DNA from: Entrophospora sp. SA101
Lineage: Eukaryota > Glomeromycota > Glomeromycetes > Entrophosporales > Entrophosporaceae
Direction: 5' to 3'
DNA length: 64,000 nt
Assembly (NCBI GenBank): GCA_958430865.1
Contig: CAUDNR010004024.1
Span: forward strand, 1 to 64,000
Both the position numbers and the translations under genes were made by a program. Below the pieces are notes generated by a model. That model made no database searches. It was not told where the DNA came from and saw only the letters and a program-made list of their open reading frames with translations. Shown here piece after piece: positions 31,936 through 64,000 of the stretch (positions are counted from its first letter, which is position 1; each line of letters starts with the position of its first letter).

Positions 31936-32708
31936 ATATCTACTTTGGTAGTTATTTAAACTTTAGTGATTTTCTGTAATTAGATTGAATTTTACTAGTT
32001 TGACAATTTAAAATAAAAATCGCTAAACCTCTTCAAAAGATTTATTCGCAGGATTTCGGAATTGTTTATACTATACCTTGATCTCCAAGATAAATTCTTT
32101 TTTGATCAGGCGTTTTTAATTGATGTTTCGCACAATTGATAGAAATATAATGTTGTAATAGTAACGTTTTTTTCGAACAGAAATGTGGACGGTGCCATAA
32201 AAACTTGATAGTTTTTTCACCAACTGATATTGTTTTGTTAGAAAGAATGAAAGATTATCTTCCACTTCTGAAACAAATGTAAACAAGGAAAATATAGATG
32301 GTAGAGGGTATACATGAACCTGAAATTAAGCCCCTAAAGCCGAACTATTTCAGCTTGAGATGATTTTTGAATTTTAGATTAAATACAATCAAACCAATTT
32401 CCCATCTTTTTTTTTTTGAGATGTTATAGACGATGATAAAAATATAATTGTCGTTGATGATAATGATAATGATGGCGACGAGGATAATAATTCAGAAATT
32501 GAAATGATAAACAATTCCAATATTCTTGGCTTGCTGGATTTCAAGGTCAAGCAAAAAATTGAATGTTAAAAAAGCAACTGACATAAACAAACGATACAAT
32601 TAGAAGCTTCTAAAAATCGAATGAGAGTTATATTAGGTGAAGCCGAAACCAATTTAATAACCCAGTGAAGATAAGCATTAACAACTCATAAATATATTTT
32701 TTTTAATG

Positions 32709-59462: not shown

Positions 59463-59986
59463 GAATAGATTCCCTCATGAGATTGTCCTAATGCTAGCAT
59501 GGGAGGGTCATAAATAACTCCTCTGTTAGGAACTTTGAAAAACTTTTGAAGCAGATTAACAATAGCCTCATGTACATTTGTTGCCATATCAATTATATAT
59601 ACACTACCAGTTTTATTGTCAGAATTTAACTTGAAATAGAATTTATATCCCTCTGAACCATAGTTGTTAAGAAAAGTGTTATAATTTTTGATTGTTATAT
59701 TTGAGCCAATTTGGAATGGCAAACTGCATTCCATACAAAGTTCACATTAGCTGGTACTTAAGTAATAAGTTAATAAATACACCTATACACTACCTGCTTA
59801 CTGCTAATGGCTTTTTTGGTAATTTTGGATAATTATGTAGAGTTTCGTCAATTCTATCCAAAATCCTTGCCCACCAAATTTCATTTTAAAGTACATGCAT
59901 GAGACATTTTCAAGAGAAAACTTTTTTTTAAAAAAAAAAAGTAAAAAAAAATTTGTGAAATCATTATTGGACTGTTTAATATGGGG

Positions 59987-60060
59987 CATGCTGCAACAAA
60001 ACCAGACAAAGTGAACATTGGCATTACCAATGATTTCAGGGATCAAAATTTAGTCATTAT
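59987..60060. repeat. Dispersed repeat, copy 2 (also at 31083)
   Basis: Shares tgctgcaacaaaaccagaca and aagtgaacatt with 31083-31160 plus a later ggatcaaaatttag block. It lies between the broken Uma2-like gene and the first ORF of the UGA-Trp segment, about 140 bp upstream of the ATG at 60157. The 13-mer gacaaagtgaaca inside it recurs at 63729-63741. Confidence 0.75.
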
Positions 60061-60156
60061 TATCACAATTATAATGTGATCACATTTTAACAGTTTTATA
60101 ATGTCCCATTGTTATCTTAAATGATATACAGAACTACCCCTATATAAAATAATAAT

Positions 60157-60423
60157 ATGAAACTCATTTACATCAGATCTACAATGAAACCCAAGAATTA
60201 TAGCACTATTAGAAGTATTTTGAAGGAAGAACAAGGTGAAAAAATTGCTCTTTACATTTTCAAAATAAATGATACTCAGACACTGGAAGCTTATCTAAGA
60301 AAAGAAAGGATTACTTATGAAATTTACCAAGAAGAAAGAAAAATAATAAATCTTGGAAAAAGAAAGCATCATGATGATGCATTATTACCTAATAAAAAGC
60401 AAAAATCCTTAAAAGGAAAATAA
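60157..60423 (+). CDS. Small basic hypothetical protein
   Basis: An 88-residue frame ending in TAA. It is Lys/Glu-rich with a helical middle (EGEKIALYIFKINDTQTLEA-like composition) and a basic C-terminal cluster (GKRKHHDD ... NKKQKSLKGK) that could be a nuclear localisation or nucleic-acid-binding tail. It contains no Trp, so it gives no information on the TGA question. An A/T box ctatataaaa ends 8 bases before the ATG. It lies tail-to-tail with the minus-strand block beside it, 60 bp away. I do not recognise it. Confidence 0.5.
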   Translation: MKLIYIRSTMKPKNYSTIRSILKEEQGEKIALYIFKINDTQTLEAYLRKERITYEIYQEERKIINLGKRKHHDDALLPNKKQKSLKGK

Positions 60424-60483
60424 CTACTATTTTTTTTGATAGTTGGAATGAATTTCAATTTATACAAAGGGAAGTTTCCTCAA

Positions 60484-61092
60484 TTACTTTTTTATTTTCA
60501 ATCAAGATCATCTTTTAGTCTCTTTGACTTCAATTTGAGCAGTTAATTGACCATTCTGTTGATCTTTTAATTTCCTGTTTTCCTTTTCTAGTTGCTTAAT
60601 TTTTTCTTCTAAACTCTTTATCTTATTCAATAATTCCTGTTTTTGCTTTTTACTTCACTCTTCTGATTTTTCCTGAAACTTGGCTACTTCTTCTCTTTCA
60701 ATGTTCAACTCCTCCTTGGCAGTTTTCAATTTCCTTTCAAGTTCTTTGGTTTCCTTTGCTAAACGAGATTTGATAGTTTGGGAAGTTCCCTCCTCTGCAG
60801 AAAGTGTTCTAAATTTTCCATCTTTCAATAGATTACAATAACAACCTCTCCTATTTCTTTGTAATCTGCCACAAAGTTCACAATAAGAAAGATTATTGTT
60901 TTCAAAATCTTTTTTACAATTATCACAGATGGAAGCAATATCAGCACAATCTCCATTGTTATCATATGCCATTATTTCATGGGTAGCAGGAGTGAAAGTA
61001 ATGTCTTCTCCATAATGAACATATAATGGGCAATAATTGCAACTCGCTATGCTATCCTTTGCTATTTTTAAAATTCTGTATTCTAATTTCAT
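60484..61092 (-). CDS. Cys-pair plus coiled-coil protein, TGA read as Trp
   Basis: 202 residues from ATG 61092 to TAA 60484-60486, open only if TGA codons at 60655-60657, 60508-60510 and 60502-60504 (residues 146, 195, 197) are sense. There is no TGG in the gene. The N-terminal half has spaced Cys pairs, C18/C21 (CNYC), C56/C59 (CDNC), C71/C74 (CELC) and C84/C86 (CYC), suggesting zinc binding. The C-terminal half is a long charged coiled coil (LAKETKELERKLKTAKEELN). Under the standard code it would stop at 145 residues, in the middle of the coil. The ATG is 2 nt after the stop of the upstream gene. Function unknown; a structural or nucleic-acid-associated role is a guess. Confidence 0.65.
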
Positions 61093-61094
61093 AG

Positions 61095-61742
61095 TTATTT
61101 ATTGTTTTGTAAAATATAAGTGTTGAACTTTTCTTTAACATTTTCTTTGATTGTATTAACTTTTTCTTTAAATTTTTTAACTCTTTCCTTAACTTTTGTT
61201 TTGGCTTTGTTTTCTAATTTTCGTAATTGTTTTACTCTGTCTACTTTTTGGTTCTTCTCTAACTCTTGAATTTTTAATTTCAAATTGGTTATAATAGTGT
61301 CCTTTGACATTCCTAATAAGAAAAGATTTCTATCATGATATTCTTTGGACTTGTCTAGTGCTTTCAAGTTCATTTCAACTTCCATGTCTACTCTTTCTTC
61401 TAAATTCTCTATTATGTTATCTTTTTCTTCTACTCTTGCTTCAAATTCCTTAATTTTTTCAAGCAATTCATTCCTCTCTTTCTCTAAACTAGATGTTAGT
61501 GGCTGTAGACTTCTAACTTCTTTATCAGCTTTTACTCATCAATTCATTGCATTTTTATGCATGTAAATAAGGTGAACAAAACTTTTTCTAAATTCTTTTT
61601 CTTCTAAGTGTTTTAATGCATAAGGGTGAAGTCAAAAATAATCTATAACTGCTCTTATCTCTGTTTCATCTGGATTTCGGTTTAAACTACCAATTAGTTC
61701 TCTTATTTCCTTTTCAGTTAAAATTATTTCTTGGTTTGTCAT
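61095..61742 (-). CDS. Coiled-coil protein, TGA read as Trp
   Basis: 215 residues from ATG 61742 to TAA 61095-61097. The frame crosses three TGA codons (61632-61634, and two adjacent ones at 61539-61541 and 61536-61538; residues 37, 68, 69) and contains no TGG. Residues ~1-70 form a compact segment (TEKEIRELIGSLNRNPDETE); from ~80 onward it is coiled coil (EARVEEKDNIIENLEERVDM) turning very Lys-rich (KTKVKERVKKFKEKVNTIKE). Under the standard code the start and first 69 residues would be lost and no nearby ATG would replace them. It is followed at 2 nt by the Cys-pair gene. Not recognised; perhaps a DNA-binding or scaffold partner of its neighbours. Confidence 0.65.
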
Positions 61743-61926
61743 TATTCTTTTAATATACTTATATCCTTTTTATGAGTGCATATTAAGTATATAAATTATT
61801 TTAGTACTTTTTTTACTTTAAAACTAACAATATTTGTCAAAAAATCAAACTTATTAAACTTAATGACAATAAAGGACAAATTAACAAGTGTGATAAAGTC
61901 ATGGAAGTGATTTTATTTTGAATATT

Positions 61927-63693
61927 TTATTTGTTGCAAATATAGAATGGTTTTGGGCAAGTAATATCTTTGAATTCATCTCTAACAAATGGACGAATAT
62001 TCTGGTAAAGATATTCTTGCCTTTTGTAATCCAAAGGAGGTGGCATTAACACTAAAATAGATAGAGCTTTAATTTCTTCAAAAATATCTGCTTTCTTGGT
62101 TTTCAACAAATTGAACTCAACAGAAGGTCCATTAGCAACTTCTTGAACTTTCACTGTACCAAGATTAGATGCTTCAAAAAGAAAATGTTGATATCTTTGC
62201 AAGCCATTTAGCTTCTTAAAATAAATTCCCAAAATAGACTTGATATCTAAGTATTGAAAACCTTTTCCACCTCCATAACACTGAGCTTTATTTAATCCTG
62301 TTGGACTAGACTTTTTTATCACCTCAACCACATGGTCCAGACAATCTACTCTTGTTTTCCTATAGAGTTTTTTAATCAATCCAAAACTACCATCACATTT
62401 GAATTTGGTATGTCCTGGAATCATGAAATTCAATTCAACACTTTCATAATATCCACAAATTACTAAATATAAATAAAATCAAATAGTCACATTATTTTTA
62501 TTTTGTCCACCAGCATTATCGCAAGTAATCTTTAAATATTTTTCACCCTTATTTAATTTCTTAATTCCATCAAAGATCATACTAAGAGTGCCATTAGGAC
62601 CTTTTCCTATGATTTCATTTTCATTAAGAACATAATTAATTTGCTCCTTTATTGCTTCATCTTGAATACCAAATAAATGAACCTTATATGGACTAAGATA
62701 ATAGATTTTACTTACTTGTTGATCCAAATGTGGTACATGAACATTTTGAGCTCAATCATAACTATAATGAGCAGTAGCATCAATACTGCAATACTGTGTT
62801 TTACCCTTTGAATAATTTTGATTAATTAATTTTCTTTGTTCTTCTGCTAATTTGGTATTTTTATTATAATAATTTCTTTCTAATTTGGCTTTGGACAGAT
62901 GTTCTTTAAATCTTTTGAGCAAATCTTTAGCTTCTTCTTCTTGGCGAGCATTATAATGTAAACCATCTCTAAAATGTTGACAAGTATCACACAAATCAGT
63001 CCTTGAACTCATAATTTGAATCTCTGGTGTCAATTGATGTCATAATTTTCTGAAAGCAGCATATTTTAAGGATTTCAAATGACTATCTTCTTCCAGACCG
63101 GCTAGAAAATCTCTATATACTGATTTACAACTCATTTCTGCTGGTAAAAAGATAACTGATTGAGTTATTCTATTGATACTTCTTCCTGGACTTGGTAATC
63201 CATGGACTTCTGCATAATTTTCTAGAAAATTCTTTACTACTTCAGCAGCATTTTTATCAATCACCATTTTAGTTTTCCATTGAGGCATCTTCTTTATATT
63301 GCCATGAACTCTTGCTAGAAGACCATTGTTTATCAGATGATTTCCGATGTTTTCAAAATAAGTTCTGCCAATTCCTAACATATTGAGGTAAGTTTCTTGA
63401 CAAAGAGGTGTATTGTGATCTCAGTGATAGAAAGTTCTTTTATTAGATCTAGTTTTCTTTTTAAGGCGCCTACTGGTGCCTATTGTTCCACCATCCATTG
63501 CTTTAAGTTGGGCCATCAAAAATATGTCTTGTTCTAATTTAGTGAGAGCTTGAAAGGATTCCCTTAATTCTGCAAATTGCTCTTTGGGAATTCTTGAAGA
63601 GCAACCACATTTACAACCTTTTTCTAAAAAATAAATTGCTTTTCAATATTCATTAGAACCATTGCATTTATTACCCTTGCAAATATTTTTCAT
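61927..63693 (-). CDS. DUF7869/DDE-transposase-like protein, TGA read as Trp
   Basis: 588 residues from ATG 63693 to TAA 61927-61929, with no frameshift. Five TGA codons lie in frame at 63643, 63421, 63040, 62752 and 62479 (residues 17, 91, 218, 314, 405); one TGG occurs. The N-terminus has C5, C10 and C27/C29/C31. Later blocks match the pattern of DUF7869-type, transposase-like proteins: IGRTYFENIGNHLINNGLLA, RVHGN, TDLCDTC, IDATAHYSYD, CDNAGGQNKNN (residues 391-401) and GHTKFKCDG (427-435). Asp305, Asp313, Asp392, His428 and Asp434 are candidate RNase H-like site residues (inference). Residue 314 directly precedes AQNVHVP, where relatives as I recall them carry an aromatic. Under the standard code it would be shattered into six pieces. 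Confidence 0.7.
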
Positions 63694-64000
63694 ATACACT
63701 TATCCCTATATATAATTTTATAATTTTTTGTTCACTTTGTCATTTTAATATTACACATAAATATTAAGAAAAAAAAAGACAATCCTTAATGATTTTGCCC
63801 ATAAATGTTTTTCCATTTGCATTATTATTCTAATAGCTCTTTTTCAATTAAAAAGAAAGAATTAGTAAACATTCACTCACTTAACTCTTTATAAGTATAA
63901 GTAACAATAACTTAATCCTTTGCTCTCTTCATCACTGAATATTAAAAAAAAGTGTGCATCTAACAATGATGAATTATTTAACAAACTGATCACATGAAAT
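63694..64000. other. Upstream region of the transposase-like gene
   Basis: AT-rich. Minus-strand tatatataggg lies 10-24 nt upstream of the ATG at 63693, and the 13-mer gacaaagtgaaca (63729-63741) sits ~36 nt upstream. No further frame is supported before the window ends. Confidence 0.5.

Follow-up and report, generated by a model that had tools for sequence, protein, structure and literature searches.

How do three adjacent genes that can be read through only if UGA is translated as tryptophan (Trp) come to lie in the DNA of a fungus? The question is raised by a stretch of 64,000 nucleotides from Entrophospora sp. SA101 (assembly GCA_958430865.1, contig CAUDNR010004024.1, positions 1 to 64,000), which was analysed as a whole and is called the window here. 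The block in question is one copy of a dispersed transposon family in which UGA stands for Trp, and hundreds of copies of this family populate the nuclear DNA of a Glomeromycotina-type fungus. The initial annotation, made from the sequence alone, had described minus-strand frames (63693-61927, 61742-61095, and 61092-60484) that are continuous if TGA is sense, and rereading the sequence bore this out. Under translation table 4 (code 4), open reading frame (ORF) 1 (61927..63693, minus strand) encodes a DUF7869 transposase-like protein of 588 amino acids with TGA at codons 17, 91, 218, 314, and 405. ORF2 (61095..61742, minus strand) encodes a coiled-coil-like protein of 215 amino acids with TGA at codons 37, 68, and 69, the last two in tandem, and ORF3 (60484..61092, minus strand) a protein of 202 amino acids with a cysteine (Cys)-rich N-terminus, a coiled-coil-like C-terminus, and TGA at codons 146, 195, and 197. 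All three frames are unbroken, together contain 11 TGA (5 + 3 + 3) and a single TGG (ORF1 codon 139), and each terminates with TAA. At their own base composition, ~71 TAA or TAG would be expected by chance within the 1005 codons, whereas none was seen; the corresponding expectation for TGA is ~21. The block originally delimited (60484..63693) does span the genes, but the whole element is larger (~59977-63741; see below).

UGA stands for Trp in the transposon family

Copies of the three genes were collected from the assembly to which the window belongs (101.3 Mb, 2123 contigs). With ORF1 under code 4, 78 matches were listed (74 of 1618 first-look candidates scored); ORF2 yielded 33 matches and ORF3 at least 155 (150 of 408 candidates scored). 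Codon columns of ORF1 refer to the best 30 copies (L001-L030) of the 78 listed matches, those of ORF3 to 23 non-overlapping loci of at least 40% identity, and those of ORF2 to two identity thresholds, at least 60% and at least 40%. At the five Trp columns of ORF1 (150 cells), TGA occurred 87 times and TGG 56 times, TAG and TAA not once. Columns 218 and 314 were each occupied by TGA in 30 of 30 copies, and TGG and TGA exchanged at columns 91 (23 and 7), 139 (19 and 10, one other codon; the window copy has TGG), and 405 (14 and 10, six others). As decay of TGG through G-to-A change yields TAG as readily as TGA, the lack of TAG leads us to reject such an origin. Among the 16,985 codons of these ORF1 copies, 17 TAA, 14 TGA, and 2 TAG occurred at other positions. 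In standard-code homologues, Trp is near-invariant at columns 218 and 314, which was the outcome of the proposed comparison of residues at the TGA sites. Two standard-code DUF7869 genes of the same genome likewise have TGG at both positions, with 15 TGG and 0 TGA in total (one gene partly read). A reading of TGA as Cys or selenocysteine is out, since the standard-code homologues have Trp at the invariant sites.

In ORF3, codon 146 was TGA in 21 loci (TGG and TAA in one each), codon 195 was TGA in 11, TGG in 3, and CGA in 2, and codon 197 was TGA in all 15 loci covering it. The signal of ORF2 was weaker than that of ORF1 and ORF3, TGG occurring at none of its three positions. At the stricter threshold, codon 37 was TGA in 6/6 copies, codon 68 in 4/5 (TCA in one), and codon 69 in 3/5 (tyrosine in two); at the looser one, codon 37 was TGA in nine and GAA in three, codon 68 TGA in 6/11, and codon 69 TGA in 6/11 and tyrosine in 5/11. 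ORF2 codon 22 was a mixture of CGA and TGA. Thus, exchange of TGA with TGG in the absence of other stops was found for ORF1, mostly so for ORF3, and less clearly for ORF2. The view that TGA sites fall where an aromatic residue is expected held for several of them but not for ORF1 codon 17: in the 27 copies covering it, CAA (17) and GAA (7) prevailed, AAA and TGG occurred once each, and TGA was confined to the window copy, to which it is private rather than a shared Trp.

Substitution patterns pointed in the same direction. The median ratio of nonsynonymous to synonymous substitution rates (dN/dS) among ORF1 copies under code 4 was 0.16 at a synonymous divergence (Ks) of 0.42 (427 pairs, near-identical copies included), and the copies have therefore evolved as UGA = Trp genes, with a coding history under purifying selection in that code. 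For 16 single-frame copies, drawn from the 26 left after four near-duplicates had been dropped, dN/dS was 0.17 for shared changes and 0.39 for singletons, a pattern of long selection followed by relaxation, as expected of copies that are unexpressed after insertion. Within the matched stretch, TGA was the sole in-frame stop in 17 of the 30 best ORF1 copies, and 8 of the 30 (L001, L002, L003, L005, L006, L007, L008, and L010) were near full-length, in a single frame, and free of TAA and TAG. Occurrence of TAA or TAG in populations of the locus had been named beforehand as a sign of an ordinary pseudogene; these codons do occur elsewhere in the remaining 13 copies but at none of the ORF1 Trp columns. 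For ORF1, an origin of TGA by pseudogene or CpG decay is out, given TGA/TGG exchange without TAG together with the dN/dS, and the original assertion that these are real UGA = Trp genes rather than products of random decay is upheld.

The genes are carried by a transposon with many copies

ORF1 matches Pfam PF25273 (DUF7869) with 68.3 bits (cut-off 26), and a DDE/RNase H fold was found for it. The whole element copy, comprising the three UGA = Trp genes and ORF4, extends from 59977 to 63741 on the minus strand, with ends that are approximate to a few bases and were defined by homology among copies: similarity opens at 59975-59984 and closes at ~63737-63752, with little common sequence beyond. 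The left terminus, TATGGGGCATGCTGCAACAAAACCAGACAAAGTGAAC (59980..60016, plus strand), is identical at 18 loci with differing flanks, counted after identical segments had been removed. A 34-bp portion of it has 1076 sites in the assembly at up to 3 mismatches, gene-free pieces included, and the reversed control 0. The right terminus, GTTCACTTTGTC (63730..63741, minus strand), is an inverted match to 60005-60016; the match comprises 12 bp and is positioned 18 bp inward of the left end. This end is less certain than the left one because in 16 of the 27 copies bearing the motif, similarity to some other copies runs on outward (alignments of 38-351 bp, one pair 1460 bp). Dispersed copies, defined ends, and different flanks were thus all found, the left end being clear and the right end less so. 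A TTTAATAT repeat is seen by eye on either side of the window copy and is absent from two other copies read at both ends; as a target-site duplication, this 8-bp repeat is therefore unsupported by those copies.

ORF1-3 occur together, with order and strand kept, on several contigs (e.g., C1359, C1657, and C1539). ORF2 stop and ORF3 start are separated by 2 nucleotides in the window copy and by 1-6 in 21 of 23 loci; GTG serves as the start in 2 loci that are near-identical. This spacing resembles that of a bacterial operon and fits bacterial translation better than scanning. Copies L020, L021, L022, and L027 are near-identical and may be segmental duplicates; recent transposition is therefore not claimed. 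At locus L043 (contig C86), two overlapping ORF1 pieces suggest that one element inserted near or into another. ORF3-like genes outnumber ORF2 matches, down to low identity, and ORF3 may belong to several UGA-coded element families.

ORF4 (60157..60423, plus strand; 88 amino acids, basic C-terminus) is convergent to ORF1-3 and conserved across copies. It is without a Trp codon, so that its translation is identical under both codes. Its median dN/dS was 0.11 (76 pairs from 13 loci, overlapping loci kept in), and in the same copies its conservation exceeds that of ORF2 and of the first half of ORF3. No known family was matched in family searches.

Copies reside in fungal DNA of nuclear type

Elsewhere in the window are genes for C2H2, TLDc/BACK, kinase, and VTC proteins, and seven of the window's ORFs contain 26 TGG and 0 TGA. 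Together with the fungal gene content, this agrees with the earlier statement that the remaining window uses the standard code. The best named relatives of the TLDc/BACK protein are from Glomeromycotina (26-39% identity), and metagenome proteins reach up to 66%. On the contig of copy L022, an exon of a fatty-acid hydroxylase gene was found. With fungal neighbours on both, a contaminant contig is unlikely for the window and for L022. The upstream flanks of 30 copies have a GC content of 0.27 and a median longest code-4 frame per 1.3 kb of 142 amino acids, compared with 145 in the window and 195-276 in three contigs of Mollicutes-related endobacteria (MRE); the copy flanks thus look fungal. Copies of the family, with their defined left end, are scattered through standard-code DNA of fungal type. 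At L064 (C1738:23800-25650), the 18S-type rRNA gene differs, through G-to-A and C-to-T changes, from a motif that we take to be universal; it is perhaps a decayed ribosomal DNA copy.

ORF1 probably descends from a fungal type of transposase

In a maximum likelihood tree of 50 DUF7869 proteins, the UGA-coded proteins fell among 26 rows forming one clade (support 100/99), comprising copies of this genome, proteins labelled Ambispora, Geosiphon, Diversispora, and Gigaspora, metagenome proteins, and P0036, which bears the label Candidatus Moeniiplasma. These rows were chosen by closeness, and UGA use was read on DNA in this genome's copies only. The sister of this clade consists of 14 rows from Rhizophagus, Gigaspora, and this genome's standard-code genes (100/94). 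Within the clade, the multi-copy branch has as its sister P0036, two short metagenome proteins, and one Ambispora protein. P0036, one protein on a 124.8-kb contig, is 53% identical over 55% of ORF1, lacks the N-terminal part, and has Trp at columns 314 and 405. Relatives are present in other fungal assemblies, one of them on a 1.19-Mb contig labelled Geosiphon. Column 314 is absent in 13 of 17 deposited fungal proteins of the clade, which are also gapped elsewhere; in standard-code proteins, it is Trp in 5 of 6, the sixth not covering it. The omission from deposited proteins is only suggestive of UGA use in other fungi. The simplest path would lead from a fungal transposon to MRE and on to fungal nuclei, for which a single MRE protein offers thin support.

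The assembly also contains endobacteria that read UGA as Trp

Three 16S genes of mollicute type (assigned by eye) are located on contigs C1138, C293, and C923, and the same assembly contains UGA-rich gatB and rpoB and tRNA(UCA) on the endobacterial-type contigs C792 and C1735. A UGA = Trp translation system therefore shares the sample. Seven contigs (C792, C293, C923, C1799, C1735, C2028, and C1138; ~0.64 Mb) were assigned to MRE, which, given three different 16S genes, are probably of several kinds. The 16S gene of L061 (C1138:11600-13300) seems, by eye, to be without the usual anti-Shine-Dalgarno tail, which is present in the two others.

A search for tRNA-Trp(UCA) on the same contig had been suggested at the outset. 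ARAGORN found no tRNA in the window, none was present in 11 element loci scanned, and tRNA(UCA) lay on the endobacterial-type contigs. With the C792 tRNA as query, matches were obtained on C792 (twice), C1735 (UCA), and C2028 (CCA); the C1735 and C2028 tRNAs have the 3′ CCA encoded, in bacterial style. The pattern searches, which are insensitive, revealed no tRNA(UCA) on fungal DNA: the first pattern cannot match the C792 tRNA because of one loop base, so that its negative is weak, and of 32 pattern hits, the five examined by ARAGORN contained one tRNA-Leu and nothing else. The tRNA genes of C792 are arranged in two inverted clusters (30-36 kb and 131-136 kb), and its tRNA(UCA) region has a 90% identical copy at 32142, which points either to a duplication or to the joining of two different endobacterial genomes.

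The likely compartment of translation and its alternatives

The nucleus appears to read UGA as stop, and nuclear copies should therefore yield no full-length ORF1-3. The explanation we consider probable, if far from certain, is that the proteins of a code-4 DDE (DUF7869) transposon in fungal nuclear DNA are produced in a compartment that reads UGA as Trp. The most likely such compartment is MRE, because code, tRNA, and a relative are there. The early suggestion of an endobacterium or mobile element as source accords with the dispersed transposon and with code-4 MRE in the assembly. More tentatively, and at somewhat less than an even chance, a cross-kingdom shuttle may be at work, in which a fungal DDE element was recoded in code-4 endobacteria and repeatedly seeded into Glomeromycotina nuclei by bacterially made transposase. 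Under the probable explanation given first, a fungal-type transposon would have entered MRE of this fungus or its ancestors, adapted to their code inside the bacteria, and moved back, recoded, into fungal nuclei. The nuclear copies, incapable of making full-length protein, would be moved in trans by transposase that is translated in the UGA = Trp compartment and then acts on nuclear DNA.

Several observations weigh against this explanation, in which the bacterial step, and the way protein or DNA enters the nucleus, are the least certain parts. Transposase made by bacteria would need to get into the nucleus, and translation of ORF1-3 in MRE, though the most likely course, is read from sequence. 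The window copy itself is on a fungal contig, not on an MRE chromosome. Comparing MRE contigs with the element confirmed that MRE using UGA = Trp are in the assembly but gave no ORF or terminus match on the seven contigs among the matches listed (100 of the 1076 terminus sites), with only one or two ORF matches expected on ~0.64 Mb at genome-wide density. Only one MRE-labelled relative, the partial P0036, is known to us, and scans of GTDB contigs retrieved none. Apart from Trp, the codon usage of the element is intermediate between those of MRE and fungal genes, leaning slightly towards the latter (per-codon scores of -0.044 to -0.003 for the element, -0.004 to 0.151 for MRE, and -0.148 to 0.029 for fungal genes). 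A codon-usage correlation favouring MRE (0.86 vs 0.78) was dropped, its signal being gone once Trp was excluded.

Could the mRNA of a nuclear transposon instead be translated in the fungal cytosol, where a suppressor tRNA, or termination modified at particular times or places, would let UGA be decoded as Trp? About a thousand left ends in nuclear-type DNA, a codon usage that is not clearly bacterial, and the readability of ORF4 in the standard code would suit such decoding. We still regard it as unlikely, as five UGA in ORF1 of the window and two in tandem in ORF2 would leave leaky read-through with almost no product, no tRNA(UCA) was recognised on fungal DNA by the insensitive pattern searches, and both the standard-code relatives (15 TGG) and the seven window ORFs (26 TGG) are free of TGA. 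UGA = Trp is common in fungal mitochondria, and so are transfers of mitochondrial DNA to the nucleus; nuclear copies could thus be transfers of a mitochondrial plasmid or element read by the mitochondrial code. COX1 had no match in the assembly, and the mitochondrial genome therefore seems to lie outside it. A transposon-like left end beside 18 different flanks is, however, unlike random organelle transfers, and the nearest UGA = Trp relative that has an organism label and is not from a fungus is bacterial, which makes a mitochondrial source distinctly improbable. The three-gene cassette with accessory proteins of no known kind might also recall a virus, or another extrachromosomal element that has a code or tRNA of its own. 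Against this highly improbable origin stand the lack of an IMG/VR match, of a viral family hit of note, and of a tRNA in the element loci scanned.

The chance that bacterial DNA was mis-joined to fungal contigs is very slight. MRE contigs are indeed in the assembly, and MRE contamination of Glomeromycotina assemblies is described in two reports (PMC10507103, PMC11423566). Yet the copies occupy many separate loci with fungal-like flanks, relatives exist in other fungal assemblies, including the Geosiphon-labelled contig, and 1076 left ends far exceed what MRE genomes of 0.3-1.0 Mb, the size stated in one of these reports (PMC11423566), would be expected to contribute by mis-joining. Next to no probability attaches to an ordinary pseudogene of a standard-code transposase whose TGA arose from TGG or CGA by decay. 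TAA or TAG in 13 of the 30 best copies, CGA at ORF3 codon 195 in 2 loci, and the CGA/TGA mixture at ORF2 codon 22 are what decay would produce, but neither a random representation of all stops nor a dN/dS near 1 was found: two ORF1 columns are invariably TGA, and 87 TGA are opposed to 0 TAG or TAA at dN/dS 0.16.

If translation in MRE is true, mobile elements can pass between an intracellular bacterium and its host and be kept working by protein from the other side; if the shuttle is true, a standard-code nuclear genome has been filled with a transposon that it cannot itself translate. The element would provide genetic access to the endobacteria of mycorrhizal fungi, about which little is known, and would account for broken gene models in these genomes, and it warns against dismissing UGA-containing frames in such genomes simply as contamination or as pseudogenes. 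Decoding of UGA for this element in the cytosol would instead amount to a partial change of code in a fungal nucleus, which would be equally unexpected.

Comparison with known systems

The transposase family is known (DDE, DUF7869); its code mismatch with the resident genome is, to our knowledge, new. No report of a UGA = Trp transposon amplified in a standard-code nucleus was found in the open-access literature, subscription papers being outside the search, in line with the earlier remark that this is not a described feature of fungal nuclear DNA. With the DUF7869 (PF25273) proteins of fungi and animals, ORF1 has the domain and conserved motifs in common. In those relatives the conserved Trp is encoded by TGG, whereas the present family uses TGA or TGG and has ORF2-ORF4 in addition. 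P0036 of Candidatus Moeniiplasma glomeromycotorum belongs to the same clade as ORF1, with no multi-copy element shown for it. To Mariner/Tc1 transposases (Mos1, SETMAR) and retroviral integrases, there is a likeness in fold only (~10% sequence identity), and this element differs from them by extra N- and C-terminal parts and accessory genes. Nuclear copies of mitoviruses also place genes of a UGA = Trp replicator in nuclear DNA; those are fragments of RNA viruses, whereas this element is a DNA transposon with termini and hundreds of copies. Exchange between a fungal host and code-4 bacteria is likewise the subject of reports on the transfer of fungal genes to MRE and on fungal assemblies contaminated with MRE (PMC10507103, PMC11423566). 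There, genes pass from the fungus into MRE, or contigs of bacterial origin turn up in a fungal assembly, whereas here a code-4 element is found many times in fungal DNA.

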